This document shows positions 21,254-28,915 of a stretch of DNA of 64,000 nt, one piece after another. The notes beneath the pieces were generated by a model. The model saw only the letters and a list, made by a program, of their open reading frames with translations. It was not told the origin of the DNA and searched no databases. Every line of letters starts with the position of its first letter. The first letter of the stretch is position 1. The stretch comes from Borreliella garinii (GTDB taxonomy: Bacteria > Spirochaetota > Spirochaetia > Borreliales > Borreliaceae). The DNA is taken from the NCBI RefSeq assembly GCF_001922545.1, contig NZ_CP018744.1, positions 310,001-374,000 on the forward strand, given 5' to 3'. A program made the translations under genes and the position numbers.

Positions 21254-21823
21254 TTACTTTCTAACTCGCAATACTAAATCTTTACCTGCTGTAACAGGCT
21301 TTGTTTGAGATATTTTATGTCTAATTTCTTCTGTTAACACAGTTGACGACGACAAAATATATTCGGACTCATTTTCAAGCCTTCCAAAAGAATATTCTAT
21401 GCTTGAAACTTCATCAGAATTTGCAATAACAACTGGAGTAATAACGGATTCTGAATGCTCTTTTAAATATTCAAGATCAAGTCTAATAATAACTTCACCT
21501 TGTTTAACATTAATGCCCTCCTCGGCAACTCTTGTAAAACCCTTGCCATTTAAATTAAGAGTATTAATTCCAAAATGAACAAAAATTTCAACACCCTCTT
21601 TGGTTTCAAGGCTAAAGGCATGATTAGTTTTAAAAATTTTACCTATTTTCCCATCACAAGGCGCTAGCAACTCATTACTTGTTGGAAGAATTGCAATTCC
21701 ATCACCCACTATTTTTTCAGCAAACGCTTCATCGGGAACCTTATCAATTGACATAACTTTTCCACTAATCGGCGCAATCAAATCCAATGTAGCGGTTTTT
21801 TTAAAAAAATCTAAAAAACCCAT
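21254..21823 (-). CDS. crr: PTS glucose-type EIIA protein
   Basis: Phosphocarrier between HPr and membrane sugar permeases. The 189-residue protein contains the EIIA-Glc motifs TNHAFSLETKEGVEIFVHFG with H68 and the phospho-histidine H83, GDGIAILPTSNELLAPCDGK, and an insertion-free core. Both active histidines match E. coli H75 and H90. A short C-terminal tail (ISQTKPVTAGKDLVLRVRK) extends past the usual fold. It begins 2 bases after ptsI, as the last gene of ptsH-ptsI-crr. By order BB_0559. Confidence 0.96.
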   Translation of the reverse strand: MGFLDFFKKTATLDLIAPISGKVMSIDKVPDEAFAEKIVGDGIAILPTSNELLAPCDGKIGKIFKTNHAFSLETKEGVEIFVHFGINTLNLNGKGFTRVAEEGINVKQGEVIIRLDLEYLKEHSESVITPVVIANSDEVSSIEYSFGRLENESEYILSSSTVLTEEIRHKISQTKPVTAGKDLVLRVRK

Positions 21824-21825
21824 AA

Positions 21826-23547
21826 CTAATCTCCTATAAATTTATCAAAATAACTTAAAGTCTCTTGCTCAGAATCGCTATTTAAAACCTTATTTGCCAA
21901 TTCTTCTAATTCCACTATTGTATACTTTTTAAGCAAATATTTAATTCTAAGTGTAGCACTAGGAATCATGCTTAAAGACCTAAATCCAAGACCTACAAGA
22001 AGTAATGCTCCAGCGTCATCTCCCCCAAGCTCGCCACAAACAGACACATCAATTCCAGAACTAATTCCATCATCAAGAACCTTTTTGATTAATTTCAACA
22101 CAGCAGGATTATACTTGTCATATAAATTTGATATTTTTTGATTGCCACGATCAACAGCTAAAACATATTGGGTTAAATCATTAGTCCCTATGCTAAAAAA
22201 TTTCAATTTATTGGCAAGTTTAGAGGAAATTAAAGCCGCAGAAGGAACTTCTATCATACAGCCCACTTCCAAGTTTTCATCAAAAGGCAAACCTCTAGAC
22301 TTTAAGCTAATTTTTGCATTATTCACAAAATATTCGATCGTTTCAATCTCTTCATATCTAGTAAGCATAGGCACCATTACCCTTATTTTCCCATAATGAC
22401 TGGCCCTGAAAATAGCATTAAACTGTGCTTGGATCAATTCCTCATATTCCTTATACATCCTAAGTGCTCTAAAGCCTAAAAAGGGATTCTCCTCTTTCTC
22501 AAAATTAAGATAGGGAATTTCCTTATCTCCACCAACATCAAGAGTACGAATCGTAACAATCCCCTTTTTTTCCATTGTATCTACAACTCTCTTATAAGTT
22601 TCAAACTGCTCATCTTCTGTTGGGGGTTGTAAAGATTTCATATATAAGAATTCTGTTCTAAAAAGACCTATTCCCTCAACACCATATTTATTAACATAGG
22701 CAATATCAACAGGTGTTCCAATATTTGCCTTTAAAAATACTTTTACACCATCTTTTGTTTCAGCATCTTTATCTTTTAAAGAAAAAAGCTCTTTTTCCAT
22801 CTCTACTTGGCGCAAAATCTTACCCCTATAAAGATCAAGCTCATCAGAAGAAGGATTTTTAATAACAATAGAAGATATTGCATCAATGACTATTTTATCA
22901 CCATCCTTTAACGCATCAATATCTAACAAAGTCATAACAAGCGCTGGAAGCCCCATTGTTCTTGCCAAAATAGCAGCATGAGAAGTTTCTCCTCCAACTG
23001 CAGTTAAAAACCCTTTAACATAATTTAAGTCAAATTGCATGGTATCAGATGGAGTTAATTCTTCGGTAACAAGAATAATATCTTTATTAATTTCAGAAAA
23101 ATCGGTTACTTGACCCAAAATGATAGAAATTAATCTATTCCTAATATCCTTATAATCAGACGCCCTTTCTTTTAAATAAGGATCTTTATAGTCTTCCACG
23201 CTTTTAACCAAATTTTCAAACGCTAAATAAATAGAATAAGCAGCGCTATAATTTTCCTTTGTAATAAGCTCAATAACAAGCTCGGAAAGTTCATCGTCTT
23301 CAACGATCAAAACTTGACCTTCAAAAATACCTTTCTTGTCATCTCCAAATTGAAGCACAGCTTTTCTATCAAGGTCTTTAAGCGCTTCAATTGCTTTTAA
23401 CTTAGCTTTATTGAATTTCGATATCTCGCTATCAACTTGAGAAAATTCGATTTTTTCCTTACTTACAATTTTATCAAAATTTTTCCTAATACAAAGAACT
23501 TCTCCAATGCCTATTCCTCTGGATATTCTTTTGCCCGATAAAGTCAT
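21826..23547 (-). CDS. ptsI: PTS enzyme I (phosphoenolpyruvate-protein phosphotransferase)
   Basis: Takes phosphate from PEP and passes it to HPr. Length 573 is standard. The phospho-histidine is H190 in GGETSHAAILARTMGLPA; the PEP-binding barrel shows GLFRTEFLYM, RTLDVGGDKEIPYL, VMVPMLTRYEEI, FSIGTNDLTQYVLAVDRGN and catalytic cysteine in VSVCGELGGDDAGA. Everything needed for activity is present. Middle gene of the PTS operon, 20 bases after ptsH. By order BB_0558. Confidence 0.98.
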   Translation of the reverse strand: MTLSGKRISRGIGIGEVLCIRKNFDKIVSKEKIEFSQVDSEISKFNKAKLKAIEALKDLDRKAVLQFGDDKKGIFEGQVLIVEDDELSELVIELITKENYSAAYSIYLAFENLVKSVEDYKDPYLKERASDYKDIRNRLISIILGQVTDFSEINKDIILVTEELTPSDTMQFDLNYVKGFLTAVGGETSHAAILARTMGLPALVMTLLDIDALKDGDKIVIDAISSIVIKNPSSDELDLYRGKILRQVEMEKELFSLKDKDAETKDGVKVFLKANIGTPVDIAYVNKYGVEGIGLFRTEFLYMKSLQPPTEDEQFETYKRVVDTMEKKGIVTIRTLDVGGDKEIPYLNFEKEENPFLGFRALRMYKEYEELIQAQFNAIFRASHYGKIRVMVPMLTRYEEIETIEYFVNNAKISLKSRGLPFDENLEVGCMIEVPSAALISSKLANKLKFFSIGTNDLTQYVLAVDRGNQKISNLYDKYNPAVLKLIKKVLDDGISSGIDVSVCGELGGDDAGALLLVGLGFRSLSMIPSATLRIKYLLKKYTIVELEELANKVLNSDSEQETLSYFDKFIGD

Positions 23548-23567
23548 AACTTAAATCCTTCTAAAAT

Positions 23568-23828
23568 TCATTCTTTAAAAGATTCGATAAGCTCCGCAAG
23601 CTCTGAAGCAGCAATCTCCTCATCCTCACCCTCAGCACATATCAAAAGCTTTTTACCTGCTGATAATTCCAAAGTTTGAAGCCTGAATAAACTTTTCCCG
23701 CTAACAGACTTGCCATCGGACTCTATTGTTATCTCGCTAGAATATTCTTTAGCTTTTTTTACAAAAGTTGACGCAGGCCTAACATGTAAACCGTTTACAG
23801 CCTTAATAATTGCTTCTTTTTTTACCAT
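23568..23828 (-). CDS. ptsH: PTS phosphocarrier HPr
   Basis: An 86-residue HPr with active H15 in NGLHVRPASTF and a serine at position 46 in GKSLFRLQTLEL, the site that HPr kinase modifies in Firmicutes. I saw no HPr kinase in this window and recall none in Borrelia, so S46 is probably unused. First gene of the operon; on the minus strand a TATAAT box lies at 23886-23881, about 55 bases upstream, without a clear -35 partner. By order BB_0557. Confidence 0.96.
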   Translation of the reverse strand: MVKKEAIIKAVNGLHVRPASTFVKKAKEYSSEITIESDGKSVSGKSLFRLQTLELSAGKKLLICAEGEDEEIAASELAELIESFKE

Positions 23829-23966: not shown

Positions 23967-24836
23967 TTAAAAATTAAAATTCATTAATATATCTAAATAA
24001 AAATTCTTTATTAGCTTTAAATTTCTCTCTCCTATATTAAAATTTTTAGAATCTCTTATGTTTTTATCCAACATTTTAAGAGAATTTTCTATCTCAGAAA
24101 ATGAAAGTGGCAAAGATTTGTTTAAAAGTAAAATCTGAAAATCCTTTATGACAATCACCTTATCATCATAAAATATCTTTAACAAAAAATCATTTATAAC
24201 GTCTCTTTTTATGTTTAAAAGAATGCATATAAAGATAATGTCCGCTTCTTCTAAAATATCAAAAGATAAGGTATTGAAAAATACTTTATGATAAAAGCTT
24301 CTGTTATATAGATTCATCATTGGAAATTTAAATTTAGTAACAAGAACAGTACTTCGGTTTGCAATATACTCAGCTCTATTTAAATTATAAGCACTAAAAA
24401 CATAAGTTTTTTTGGTTAAAACATTTTTAAACTCAATTTGTGCATCAAGGCTTAATAATAAAGGATAAATATCAAAAATAGTGTTTTTATAATAAAACCC
24501 ATTTGCAAGGTTAATACTATTTAAATATATTTTATCATTAAATTTCGAAATAAATTCATAAAAAAGACTTGGAATATTTTTCTTACCAATCTTAAGTATC
24601 TCGTTGTAAGTAACACAAGGCCCCATCTCAAGAAAATTACCCCTTAAAGATACCTTATTAAATTTTTCAAAATTACCAACAAGAAAAAAATTATCAATAG
24701 GCGTTTCCCTATTAAATAAATTAGGATTTTTTTTAAAATCTAGCTCATTATAAATGATATAATTATTTAAATTTTTGTTAAATAAATTAGATAGTATATT
24801 AAAATTTTCAGGATAATAAACCTTTACATTAACCAT
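23967..24836 (-). CDS. Degenerate FAD-subunit homologue of the xanthine dehydrogenase family
   Basis: Usually called hypothetical. I align its 289 residues with CoxM/XdhB FAD subunits: the N-terminal YYPENFNILSNLF corresponds to the Y-P-x-S-L-x-E-A-L start; MGPCVTYNEILKI (71-83) to the IGAxVTxxEL strand; NSINLANGFYYKNTIFDIYP (106-125) to RNxATIGGNIxxxSPxxDxxP; LLLSLDAQIEF to LLALDAxVEL; and FYHKVFFNTLSFDILEEADI to the domain end. The two FAD loops (AGGTD and TIGGN) are lost, so FAD binding is unlikely. It overlaps the preceding gene by 8 bases. By order BB_0556. The relationship is by eye and needs a profile search. Confidence 0.7.
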   Translation of the reverse strand: MVNVKVYYPENFNILSNLFNKNLNNYIIYNELDFKKNPNLFNRETPIDNFFLVGNFEKFNKVSLRGNFLEMGPCVTYNEILKIGKKNIPSLFYEFISKFNDKIYLNSINLANGFYYKNTIFDIYPLLLSLDAQIEFKNVLTKKTYVFSAYNLNRAEYIANRSTVLVTKFKFPMMNLYNRSFYHKVFFNTLSFDILEEADIIFICILLNIKRDVINDFLLKIFYDDKVIVIKDFQILLLNKSLPLSFSEIENSLKMLDKNIRDSKNFNIGERNLKLIKNFYLDILMNFNF

Positions 24837-25296
24837 TTTTTCTATACAATTCTTCAGCTTTCAAATAGAGAGATAAAAAAGTATTAACATCTATACAATT
24901 ACATTTTAATGAATTTCTATAGCCTAAAATATCTGATTTGCTTACAATCTTGTTTTCCAAAAAGTAATAAAACAACAAAATATTGGACTCAAAACAATTG
25001 CTGCAAAAATTAAAATCGTCTTCTAATAAAATATTTTGCATGTATTGATAAAAACTTGTTTTCTTAAGTCCTTCAAGAGTAACTACACTACGACCATTTA
25101 AAATAAAAGCAGGAATTAAATTAGAATAAACAAGTCTAAAATCCAATAAAATTAAAAAAAATCTATTATTAACAATATACTCTAAACTATTACTTTTGGC
25201 AAAAAAAATAGAATCCAAAAGACTTCTGGTGCCCAAAGAAAGACTAATCTTTTTTGAAATACTCTCTCCATTTAGATTGAAATTAATTAATATCAA
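24829..25296 (-). CDS. Degenerate [2Fe-2S]-subunit homologue of the xanthine dehydrogenase family, one cluster site kept
   Basis: The 155-residue protein matches the CoxS/XdhC small subunit in order. ILINFNLNGESISKKI fits the ferredoxin-like start; LLDFRLVYSNLIPAF (50-64) fits VLLDGxxVxSCLxPA with its cysteines gone; GRSVVTLEGLKK fits the VTTVEGL strand. C98-x2-C101 (FCSNC) and C132-x-C134 (KCNC) fit the QCGYCTPG and NLCRCTGY motifs that hold the helical-domain cluster. So the plant-ferredoxin-type cysteines are lost but all four cysteines of the other site remain. It overlaps both neighbours, as in genuine three-subunit operons. By order BB_0555. Function unknown. Confidence 0.72.
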   Translation of the reverse strand: MILINFNLNGESISKKISLSLGTRSLLDSIFFAKSNSLEYIVNNRFFLILLDFRLVYSNLIPAFILNGRSVVTLEGLKKTSFYQYMQNILLEDDFNFCSNCFESNILLFYYFLENKIVSKSDILGYRNSLKCNCIDVNTFLSLYLKAEELYRKNG

Positions 25297-27160
25297 TTTT
25301 TACACTCCAACTATTTAAAATTTCTTCAAAATTAAGAGGCGTGCTGCTTGCATTAAAATCAAATATCTGAATCAAAGCAGTTCGAATGGCAGAAACAGAA
25401 ACGATAAAAAAACTTCTAAAAGAAAAAACAAACTCACCATCTTCAATAAACTCTAAGCTTAAACAATCTTCAATATCGCAATTTACATTAGCACTGCAAA
25501 ATACATAATCAACTGCCAACCCAAATATTGTACGAATTCTTTTGTTATTTAACTTAAGCTTGGTAAATTTGCCTTGCTCTACAAAAAAACTTACATTAGT
25601 AAAAACAGCACTAAGAGAATAAAATTCAAATTTAAGTTCAACAGAACATCCAAGCACGCAATCATTAACATATTCAGTAGCCATTTTTTCTTTAAAAATA
25701 ACAGGATATTCACTTATAAAGCCCTTACTTAACAAAGAAGAAAAATTATCCTTAATGGTTAAAATTGCTTTTTCAATCAAATAAGGATCTTTGAAAAGAA
25801 GACTATAAAAATTAGTAAAATCTAATGAACTCTCATCTATCAAAAAATTTATACTGTTATAGGCTAAGCCCAATGTTTTAGCTAAGCTATTTTTCAAATA
25901 GTTGCTTAAATTGTTGTCAATAATACTGTAAGGCAAAAATATATTTAATCTATCCTTATATAAGCAAGCAACAACATATTGCTCACCACTTAAAAAATAA
26001 GCGTTTGAATTCAAATAAGCAAAACCGACTCCCCTGCGACTAGTGTCAAAAATATCATAATTTTTATTAACACTTATAACAGAAGATTTCTTTATTAAAG
26101 AATTTTTTAAATCTAATCTTTTAAAAATTTTAAAAAACCTGCTATAATCACCTTTAATCTGTGTAAGCAAATAACCTATTGGCTCACAAGGCATCACTAA
26201 AGCAAGATTATAAAAATTAGAATAAATAAAATTATAAACAGAAGTCTCAAATGCCAAAAGATTGTCATAAAAAAATATGAAATCACTTTTATTTTCAACA
26301 AAAAAAATTTCTAAAAACCCATCAAAAAACAAATTTTTAAAAATATTATTAATAAATTTAAAATAAAACTTATATAAAAAATTTAAAGGTCTATTTATTA
26401 TAATTTCTAAAATAACTTTTGAAAGCTTGTTATCTGCCAATAAACAATTAGAAACTGAAAAAGTTAAATTTAAATTATCCAAAATTCTAAAATGCCTTTT
26501 GTAGTAAATAACATTAACCCTTTTATTAATTTTTTTTGAAATTACAATGCCTTGCAAAATTGCATTAAAAGAAATAGGAAAAATAGAACTAGACCAGTAA
26601 TTATTAAGAGAATTAATTTTGATTTTGTCTTTATTCACACCAAAATTTTCACTAATAAAAAATTTTAAAAAAGAAATATTGTCTACATTAGCATCAATAA
26701 TTAAATTTTCAGAATCAAAAAATATTTTAACCAAAATAAAGTCATCTGGAAAACTATTGTAATCACTAAATTCATAACAAGCATTCAAAGCATTACAATC
26801 TCCAGATTCTTTCTTTTCAAATCCAGGGGAATAATTATTACTACCGTCACCAATTCTTAAATTAAAAAGAACACTTTTTTCTGCTTTTAGCAAATAATCC
26901 AAATTATCTGAATACAAAACCAAAGGAATTTGACCCTCAAAGCTTACTTTATTGTCAAAAAGCTTTAAATTAAATTCATTAGAATCAACAAAATCCCTGA
27001 ACTTTAAAGTTATATTATCTTTATAACTGATACTAAAAATTGAACTTATATGTTCATCTACAAAGCTAAAATCTTCAATAAAAGAATCTTTAACATTGCA
27101 GCAAACTGGCAAAGCCCAAAATTCATATGCATCAACATTTGTCAAACTCGCAAACTCCAA
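25283..27160 (-). CDS. Degenerate molybdopterin-subunit homologue of the xanthine dehydrogenase family
   Basis: A 625-residue protein (CoxL/XdhA relatives are about 750-800). Landmarks in family order: VSFEGQIPLVLYSDNLDYLL (72-91) as the GQPVAxVVAxS strand; FLKFFISENFGVNKDKIKIN as the VAxxLGxxxxxVxV segment; then NNYWSSSIFP where the GGGFGGK cofactor loop belongs; KKINKRVNVIYYKR as KxGRPVKxxxxRxE; SRRGVGFAY (374-382); LAKTLGLAYNSINFLID; and the last 40 residues, FIVSVSAIRTALIQIFDF then STPLNFEEIL, as in GEPPxxPVxxAIxNAIxxATG and LPLTPExVL. The catalytic glutamate of GxGE is absent. First gene of the set. By order BB_0554. Called by eye. Confidence 0.7.
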   Translation of the reverse strand: MEFASLTNVDAYEFWALPVCCNVKDSFIEDFSFVDEHISSIFSISYKDNITLKFRDFVDSNEFNLKLFDNKVSFEGQIPLVLYSDNLDYLLKAEKSVLFNLRIGDGSNNYSPGFEKKESGDCNALNACYEFSDYNSFPDDFILVKIFFDSENLIIDANVDNISFLKFFISENFGVNKDKIKINSLNNYWSSSIFPISFNAILQGIVISKKINKRVNVIYYKRHFRILDNLNLTFSVSNCLLADNKLSKVILEIIINRPLNFLYKFYFKFINNIFKNLFFDGFLEIFFVENKSDFIFFYDNLLAFETSVYNFIYSNFYNLALVMPCEPIGYLLTQIKGDYSRFFKIFKRLDLKNSLIKKSSVISVNKNYDIFDTSRRGVGFAYLNSNAYFLSGEQYVVACLYKDRLNIFLPYSIIDNNLSNYLKNSLAKTLGLAYNSINFLIDESSLDFTNFYSLLFKDPYLIEKAILTIKDNFSSLLSKGFISEYPVIFKEKMATEYVNDCVLGCSVELKFEFYSLSAVFTNVSFFVEQGKFTKLKLNNKRIRTIFGLAVDYVFCSANVNCDIEDCLSLEFIEDGEFVFSFRSFFIVSVSAIRTALIQIFDFNASSTPLNFEEILNSWSVKIDIN

Positions 27161-27427: not shown

Positions 27428-28915
27428 ATGAATAAAACAAAAAATCAAAGCTTTAAGTATTTTATAATACTTTTATGTATATCATTATTTGGGGCTAATA
27501 ATACAATAAATTACTCTAGCATTGAAATCCCCTTAGAAGACTTAAGTGAAGAATTTAAAGACATTGGAAATAAAAACGATCAAATAAATACCTCAAAAAA
27601 TTTAAACAAAAACATAGTTTCTTATAAAGACCCCAAAAGGGGTAAAGAGCTAAAATTGCCAGAAAATATAAAAGATGAAAAATTGTTAAAAAAAAGAATG
27701 GATGAAAATGATCTAAAATCTATAATTGAAAATTATGAAAATAAAATTAAAAATATAGAAAAGCTTTTAAAAGCTAAAAATCAAAAAGCATCGTCAAATG
27801 AAAATAAAAAAATAGAATCAATCGAAAGAAAAGCAAAAAAATATGAAATTTTAACCAACAAATTAAAAAACGAAATAACAGAAATAAAAAAGCTCCTTAA
27901 CAAAAGGTCCAAACCTAAAGAAGATGAAAATTATGAAAAAATAAATATTGAAAACATTGAAGAAGATGATGATGATTTTGAAGAAAATTATGAATATAAT
28001 GATGAAATTGAAGAAATAAATGGGGACGATTATCCTTCTAATGAAGGAATAATAAATAACCTAAAAGAAAACCTTCATGCGAATGAAAAATATTATGCTA
28101 TTAATGAAAAAAAAATCGATGAACTTGAAGACAGAATTAACGATAATGAAAATACTATTTTAGACTTGCAAAGAGAATTAAGAAATTTTAAAAAAAAAGA
28201 TAACTCAGATAAAAACTTAGAAGAAATTGAAGAAAACCTATCTTCAATAGGAAGAATAATTAATGATCTAAAAGAGAAAATTAGCGCAAATGAAGCAATA
28301 AATAAAGAAAATCAAAAAAAAATAAGAACCGATAAACATAAACTCAAAGAATTAGAAGATAAAATAAAGGAAAATGAAGAGACTATTTTGAAACTTCAAA
28401 AAGAATTAAACAATTTTAAAAAAAAAGAAATTTCTCAAAAATCTTCAAACGAAGAAACTTTTATTCCAAGTGTTACAAACAAAAATGACGAGCTAGAAGA
28501 AAGTAATAAATTAGAAAAGAAATATTTCAAGCCTATAGAAAAAAATGAAAGCGAAGATCTAGAAGAAAAAGCCAAAAGCACTAAAAAAACAACTATGATC
28601 AAAACAGCAGATTTTCAAATCTACCCTGACATATACGTTAATAACTATAAATTTAAAGAAAAAGGGGATCAATTTGCATTTAAAAAAGAAAACACATACT
28701 ATATTGAAATAGATCCAACCAATAATTTAAATGAAGCTCTAAAAAATCATGAAATAATCTCAAAATATAAATTTGAAAAATATTTCATTAATCCCACTCT
28801 AAAAAATAAAGAAGAATTTTTTAGGAACTTAATAGAAGTCAAAAATATCCACGAACTAGGAATTATGTATAAAAGCCTAAAGCCTGAATTTAAGCAAATA
28901 AAAATAATTAAATAA
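27428..28915 (+). CDS. Secreted, highly charged coiled-coil protein
   Basis: A 495-residue protein with an N-terminal signal sequence (FKYFIILLCISLFGANN), so probably periplasmic or anchored outside the inner membrane. Most of the rest is Lys/Glu/Asn-rich coiled coil. Two related segments are obvious: INNLKENLHANEKYYAINEK and, about 65 residues later, INDLKEKISANEAINKENQK, each ending in a LQxELxNFKKK motif. An acidic patch (NIEEDDDDFEENYEYNDEIE) precedes them. The C-terminal 110 residues (YPDIYVNNYKFKEKGDQFAF onward) look globular. No family recognised. RBS AAGGACC before ATG. By order BB_0553. Confidence 0.85.
   Translation: MNKTKNQSFKYFIILLCISLFGANNTINYSSIEIPLEDLSEEFKDIGNKNDQINTSKNLNKNIVSYKDPKRGKELKLPENIKDEKLLKKRMDENDLKSIIENYENKIKNIEKLLKAKNQKASSNENKKIESIERKAKKYEILTNKLKNEITEIKKLLNKRSKPKEDENYEKINIENIEEDDDDFEENYEYNDEIEEINGDDYPSNEGIINNLKENLHANEKYYAINEKKIDELEDRINDNENTILDLQRELRNFKKKDNSDKNLEEIEENLSSIGRIINDLKEKISANEAINKENQKKIRTDKHKLKELEDKIKENEETILKLQKELNNFKKKEISQKSSNEETFIPSVTNKNDELEESNKLEKKYFKPIEKNESEDLEEKAKSTKKTTMIKTADFQIYPDIYVNNYKFKEKGDQFAFKKENTYYIEIDPTNNLNEALKNHEIISKYKFEKYFINPTLKNKEEFFRNLIEVKNIHELGIMYKSLKPEFKQIKIIK

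Follow-up and report, generated by a model that had tools for sequence, protein, structure and literature searches.

Three overlapping genes in a 64,000-nucleotide stretch of the Borreliella garinii genome (contig NZ_CP018744.1, positions 310,001 to 374,000; hereafter the window) encode proteins that we call L, S, and F, for the large subunit, the small iron-sulfur-type subunit, and the flavin adenine dinucleotide (FAD)-binding-type subunit of the xanthine dehydrogenase (XDH) family. In our opinion, this trio is likely to have the XDH fold without being a xanthine dehydrogenase; it would belong to a molybdenum-free spirochaete family, reduced in Borrelia to a probably non-catalytic scaffold with one site of four cysteines (Cys4). 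A preliminary description of this DNA had reported overlapping reading frames of 625, 155, and 289 residues; these are found exactly at 23967–27160 on the minus strand, and the motifs that it named are present in the three proteins. The three-subunit, XDH-type identity that it proposed is borne out by hhalign comparison of L, S, and F, by Foldseek searches with models of L and S, by the tree, and by synteny. Thus, by profile comparison, fold (L and S), and gene order, L, S, and F are subunits of the XDH family.

In direct searches, F of the window weakly matches FAD_binding_5 (E-value 0.0022) and TIGR02963, the model for the XDH small subunit (1e-4), while S weakly matches the glyceraldehyde dehydrogenase gamma and PucE models, both XDH-type iron-sulfur models (2e-4); the matches lie in the correct regions. 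A Pfam and NCBIfam search with L of the window gave no match, a profile of Borreliaceae L proteins alone drew only chance matches from the PDB (ribosomal S17 and cathepsin D), and the Borreliaceae F profile matched nothing in the PDB. Because the direct searches with L were empty, L was tied to the family through its relatives in Treponema. The Borreliaceae F profile picked up relatives in Treponema and other spirochaetes, and at nearly every locus the relative stands third in an L-S-F set. Compared by hhalign with the trio of the other spirochaetes (Treponema), the Borreliaceae proteins gave E-values of 2.3e-8 for L (probability 95), 4e-18 for S, and 5e-23 for F. The Treponema trio matches MoCoBD_1 (1e-22 to 1e-47), Fer2_2 (3e-14), and FAD_binding_5 (2e-41) in Pfam, and XDH-family proteins in the PDB (4e-57 for the large, 5e-42 for the small, and 8e-28 for the FAD subunit).

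Structure models cover L and S, F being placed by its sequence only. The AlphaFold2 model of L (predicted local distance difference test score, pLDDT, 79.6; predicted template modeling score 0.80) was searched against the PDB with Foldseek, and all 50 of the 50 matches listed are large subunits of XDH or aldehyde oxidase (best E-value 1.9e-24, template modeling (TM) score about 0.66). The model of S (pLDDT 87.9) retrieves iron-sulfur subunits of the XDH family, among them that of nicotinate dehydrogenase, 3hrd (E-value 6.3e-7, TM score 0.72). An unrelated fold, the outcome that would have spoken against this identity, is ruled out by these results for L and S.

The cofactor sites have fared differently from the fold. 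In the numbering of bovine XDH, the molybdopterin-site elements Q767, GGGFGGKE (796–803), R880, the R912 loop, and MGQG (1038–1041) are replaced in all 14 Borreliaceae L proteins compared. In F of the window, the flavin motifs AGGTD and TIGGN read YNELD and NLANG, and S of the Borreliaceae has lost all four N-terminal cysteines of its first, plant-ferredoxin-type [2Fe-2S] site. The cysteines of the second [2Fe-2S] site (C98, C101, C132, and C134; CxxC-x30-CxC in the window), by contrast, are invariant in Borreliaceae and probably form a metal site, predicted to hold iron-sulfur or zinc. The term "cofactor-stripped," used in the preliminary description, is thus correct for the molybdopterin loops (GGGFGGK, AFRGFG, and the MGQG region) and for AGGTD and TIGGN, all of which are absent, but not for the second iron-sulfur site. 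Its view that no molybdopterin or FAD chemistry takes place agrees with the lost loops and motifs; the loss of the loops, however, is class-wide and not peculiar to Borrelia.

The distribution of the trio bears this out. A scan of the genome collection, anchored on F of Borrelia and thus leaving room for members in other phyla, returned 53 loci, all of them spirochaetal; where the contig was long enough, essentially every one has the complete trio. The L profile recovers about 150 spirochaete genomes at an E-value of 1e-126 or better, whereas canonical paralogues reach at best 1.6e-109 against a similar L profile, worse than the members of the L family; since canonical controls reach 1e-109, phylum-level L matches at 1e-80 to 1e-113 were left out of the family count. 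The trio spans the class Spirochaetia and is present in a T. pallidum-like genome too. In the aligned L proteins from outside Borrelia, the molybdopterin loops are replaced, GGGFGGKE often by LDGK[LI]W[YF]P and the glycines of GQG by serine-type residues, and the loops are also missing from 16 further L proteins of additional spirochaete families. Most canonical large subunits of the same phylum, on the other hand, keep GGGFGGK, AFRGFG, and GQG, and one branch of the maximum-likelihood tree separates them from the L family with a Shimodaira-Hasegawa-like approximate likelihood ratio test value of 100; this tree was built by a quick method, with a midpoint root for drawing only, and places the Borreliaceae on a very long branch. 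The missing loops, their retention in the canonical paralogues, and the split in the tree together argue that the loss of the molybdopterin site is, as judged from the alignments, a property of the whole family and not of Borrelia. The Borrelia-specific loss supposed earlier therefore gives way to a class-wide family that lacks the molybdopterin loops and elsewhere keeps its flavin and iron-sulfur motifs. The L family has conserved residues of its own (SDFxRK, RGIG, and CCxxIxxQRFRxPLPI), and K358, R376, G377, G379, P486, E508, G530, and P608 of these survive in L of the window; many residues conserved across the class are altered in Borreliaceae, for example W181 to N161, G281 to P258, and E337 to Y313.

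The supply of cofactor in the hosts is a further consideration. The Borrelia genomes searched contain no MoaC, no MoeA (MoeA_N), and no MoCoBD_1 match anywhere, a result that concerns synthesis of the molybdenum cofactor, not its uptake. By hand intersection of the L and MoaC searches, MoaC is absent in 119 of 150 L-carrying spirochaete genomes, or in 83 of 114 when the Borreliaceae are excluded. We treat this absence as supporting, not decisive; the argument rests on the loss of the loops. It should be noted that the molybdenum cofactor pathways of spirochaetes look patchy, as in genome G368, where MoaC is found and MoeA_N is not matched, yet canonical molybdo-hydroxylases are present. Compared with the xanthine oxidase family (XDH, carbon monoxide dehydrogenase, nicotinate dehydrogenase 3hrd, and glyceraldehyde oxidoreductase 4zoh), the spirochaete family shares the three subunits, the fold and, in most spirochaetes, the flavin and iron-sulfur sites; it differs in that no L-family member examined has the molybdopterin loops and most hosts are without MoaC, and in Borreliaceae the flavin motifs and one iron-sulfur site are gone as well.

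Loss of the remaining sites is graded. Most spirochaetes outside the Borreliaceae have all eight cysteines of S together with recognizable xGGxT and TIGGN motifs in F, the flavin motifs being recognizable in nearly all of them, and there the complex is probably an electron-transfer unit of a flavin and two [2Fe-2S] clusters. The N-terminal cluster is lost or incomplete also in the T. pallidum-like genome (locus L051) and in loci L053 and L100. The Borreliaceae, whose flavin motifs are lost too, are the extreme of this series and, on the motifs compared, its most reduced form. The CxC of the second site is displaced by one residue in several treponemes of the rumen type (P/F/L/S-C-C), an xCC pattern seen in L058, L059, L093, L104–L109, L112, and L114; their second site may also be changing. 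The S protein of one locus (L153:6323-6799, genome G162) apparently has none of the cysteines of either site, alongside intact L and PseB/PseC-like genes, and this would apparently be an independent event.

Outside the Borreliaceae, the gene directly upstream of L encodes a DegT-type, PseC-like aminotransferase. Every locus with a contig that extends far enough has this gene, with the sole exception of L053, as do 16 of 16 L-bearing loci from further spirochaete families; in most loci it is preceded by a gene for a PseB-like dehydratase. The upstream genes match the models of the PseB/PseC pathway (pseudaminic acid or diamino-sugar type), but at scores below the curated cut-offs (PseC-like: TIGR03588, E-value 2e-103, 346 bits vs a cut-off of 423.5; PseB-like: TIGR03589, 4e-54, 183.7 bits vs 407.75), so that we call them PseB/PseC-like only. 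A three-subunit XDH-fold complex is not known to be part of this pathway. The pair was not found adjoining L-S-F in Borreliaceae, and in Borrelia the sole DegT-type match is a weak one, resembling a NifS/SufS gene beside a NifU-like match; the pair is typical of the family and is not needed for membership by sequence. It is nevertheless, in our opinion, the best clue to the ancestral function, which may have been a step, redox or sensing, linked to a uridine diphosphate (UDP)-amino-sugar. One may speculate that the basic residues of the L-family motifs SDFxRK and QRFR suit a phosphorylated ligand. The phosphotransferase system (pts) neighborhood, remarked on earlier, proves less informative than the PseB/PseC-like pair; the pts genes were seen beside the trio in Borreliaceae only. 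Many Treponema loci (L053 to L125) continue after F with convergent queA and ruvB, joined in some by ruvA, ruvC, and yebC; this second conserved set of neighbors is probably unrelated to L-S-F.

In Borreliaceae the genes are maintained. An intact L occurs in 36 of 36 genomes, a second, order-level search having yielded just the same 36, and L, S, and F are all intact and syntenic in each of the 30 loci extracted. Between Borreliella species, the ratios of nonsynonymous to synonymous substitution rates (dN/dS) are 0.187 for L, 0.121 for S, and 0.098 for F, compared with 0.172 for ligA, 0.087 for ptsI, and 0.289 for the neighboring coiled-coil gene. Because they are intact across the family and have low dN/dS, L, S, and F are functional genes under purifying selection, in agreement with the earlier suggestion that intact frames are selected frames.

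The locus itself is not new. By gene order and published descriptions, L, S, and F are the orthologues of bb0554 ("xdhA"), bb0555 ("xdhC"), and bb0556 ("xdhB"), the order ligA, bb0553, L, S, F, ptsH being the same. Transposon mutants of bb0554–bb0556 are sensitive to peroxide and tert-butyl hydroperoxide (PMC5333916), and transposon data link bb0554 and bb0555 to survival in larval ticks (PMC6516651). As "xdhACB," the three genes have been reported as a putative XDH that has a reactive oxygen species (ROS) phenotype and that, according to the title, is critical in both ticks and mice (Phelan et al. 2023, Microbiology 169:001286; cited in PMC10566445). The resemblance of the Borrelia locus to XDH and carbon monoxide dehydrogenase and its phenotype are thus already known, and the literature speaks against the expectation of a new kind of system for Borrelia. 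What differs here is the reading, the cofactor losses making XDH activity very unlikely. In the literature searched, with the full text of Phelan et al. 2023 outside its scope, we found no report of a family spanning the class, of its missing molybdopterin loops, or of the PseB/PseC linkage, and no statement that a standard XDH is out of the question for bb0554–bb0556. One paper names TPASS_0079 and TPASS_0081 among XDH-like proteins on the strength of annotation only; searches on T. pallidum TP0077–TP0081 and on quinoline 2-oxidoreductase in Treponema returned nothing useful.

These observations suggest the following scheme. L, S, and F would assemble as a heterotrimeric XDH-fold complex, in whose ancestor L would have swapped its molybdopterin loops for other sequence, while the FAD-type subunit and two [2Fe-2S] sites stayed in most spirochaetes. 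The ancestral complex may have performed a molybdenum-free flavin/iron-sulfur redox step on, or the sensing of, a UDP-amino-sugar product. In the Borreliaceae, the outer [2Fe-2S] site, the flavin motifs, and the adjoining sugar genes would then have disappeared; what is left would be a three-subunit scaffold, under selection and probably non-catalytic, with a single putative Cys4 metal site in S. We hold with modest confidence that in Borrelia the complex most likely serves as a scaffold or sensor with a single metal site, and it would most likely act as a redox- or ligand-responsive regulator; such a regulator would be in keeping with the phenotypes of peroxide sensitivity and infection that have been published. 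The fuller proposal, that a molybdenum-independent flavo-iron-sulfur enzyme of XDH fold modifies or senses a UDP-amino-sugar from the adjacent PseB/PseC-like enzymes in spirochaetes, and that its Borreliaceae version is a non-catalytic, single-metal regulator needed in tick and host, is tentative and may well prove wrong.

Several points weigh against this interpretation. The missing flavin motifs do not strictly exclude flavin binding. The input alignments of AlphaFold2 held recognizable XDH relatives from Treponema, so that the models add detail of the fold and are not independent proof of it. The sugar link is one of gene order only, and because the Borreliaceae do not have the neighboring pair, a sugar role is not transferable to Borrelia. 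Moreover, a T. denticola-like genome with no detected MoaC or MoeA (G054) carries a second, canonical-looking molybdo-hydroxylase with GGSFGGK (L133), and missing MoaC may therefore not equal missing cofactor everywhere. The large subunits L133 (G054:C1:2145492) and L144 both show the canonical-looking motifs GGSFGGK, ACRAYG, and EQGCGT; either cofactor synthesis genes were overlooked by the searches, or the enzyme has an unusual cofactor supply.

Among other explanations, that the trio is an active xanthine dehydrogenase, as the name xdhACB says, with an imported or unusual molybdenum cofactor, appears highly improbable. The fold and the subunit order are the same, but the molybdopterin-site elements are replaced in every Borreliaceae L compared, the lost flavin motifs and outer [2Fe-2S] cysteines would break the electron path, and searches of Borrelia genomes for MoaC and MoeA, which bear on synthesis and not on uptake, gave no match. 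The published ROS sensitivity and the role in ticks and mice named in the title of Phelan et al. 2023 (cited in PMC10566445) can be counted for the enzyme. XDH would more readily generate than remove reactive oxygen, and a non-catalytic complex with one redox-capable Cys4 site agrees with the peroxide phenotype no less well than XDH does. Decay of the three genes into relics with no remaining function would account for the extreme divergence, the lost cofactor motifs, and a guanine-plus-cytosine content of 0.235–0.245, at the low end of the window; it is, however, largely refuted by dN/dS values near those of ligA and ptsI and by the phenotypes of transposon mutants (PMC6516651 and PMC5333916), besides the intact frames, and we give it hardly any credence.

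The two remaining explanations concern what the Borrelia trio does now. It is rather unlikely that the trio is still an enzyme, working with another cofactor or by direct flavin or nicotinamide adenine dinucleotide chemistry in a remodeled L pocket: the L family conserves residues of its own, some of them kept in the window, but many class-wide residues are altered in Borreliaceae and the flavin motifs are gone. Unlikely, too, is a purely structural zinc in the Cys4 site of a complex that serves as a scaffold only, for instance for the proteins of the pts genes that follow. It has been reported that B. burgdorferi can grow in iron-depleted medium and that none of its enzymes had been characterized as requiring iron (PMC5333916), the window genome has no SufB or SufD and matches NifU only below threshold (a weak NifU-like gene adjoining a NifS-like gene), and the order F-ptsH-ptsI is conserved across both Borreliaceae genera. 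Yet the four cysteines occupy the positions of the family's second [2Fe-2S] site, and adjacency to pts, seen only in the Borreliaceae, is no proof of interaction.

A locus reported as critical for survival of the Lyme spirochaete carries the name of an enzyme activity that its sequence makes very unlikely. The class-wide trio, which usually lies behind sugar-nucleotide genes, suggests that one of the best-studied molybdoenzyme folds has been put to a new use. The graded series, from a flavin and two iron-sulfur sites through the loss of one such site to a single Cys4, provides a way to examine how an enzyme complex turns into a pseudoenzyme, and the Borrelia locus allows one to ask in concrete terms whether an organism described as iron-independent retains an iron-sulfur protein.

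Table 1. Features of the L-S-F locus, in window coordinates.
Feature	Position	Strand	Remarks
L, large XDH-fold subunit	25283..27160	-	625 aa, TTG start, stop included; molybdopterin loops replaced
S, small iron-sulfur-type subunit	24829..25296	-	155 aa, TTG start, stop included; C-terminal Cys4 kept, N-terminal [2Fe-2S] cysteines lost
F, FAD-binding-type subunit	23967..24836	-	289 aa, ATG start, stop included; YNELD/NLANG replace AGGTD/TIGGN
Codons C98 to C101 of S, CxxC half of Cys4 site	24994..25005	-	computed from S start at 25296
Codons C132 to C134 of S, CxC half of Cys4 site	24895..24903	-	computed from S start at 25296
ptsH, ptsI, crr, downstream of F	21254..23828	-	same strand, 138 bp past F; not counted in complex

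The reading frames of L and S overlap by 14 bases and those of S and F by 8 (Table 1). Scans for promoters and terminators at the locus gave no signal clearly above chance. The chromosome order is ligA, the coiled-coil gene on the opposite strand, L, S, F, ptsH, ptsI, and crr. The coiled-coil gene (27428–28915, plus strand), divergent from L, has about 35–40% identity between the two Borreliaceae genera and the highest dN/dS among the genes compared, with one pair up to 0.67.

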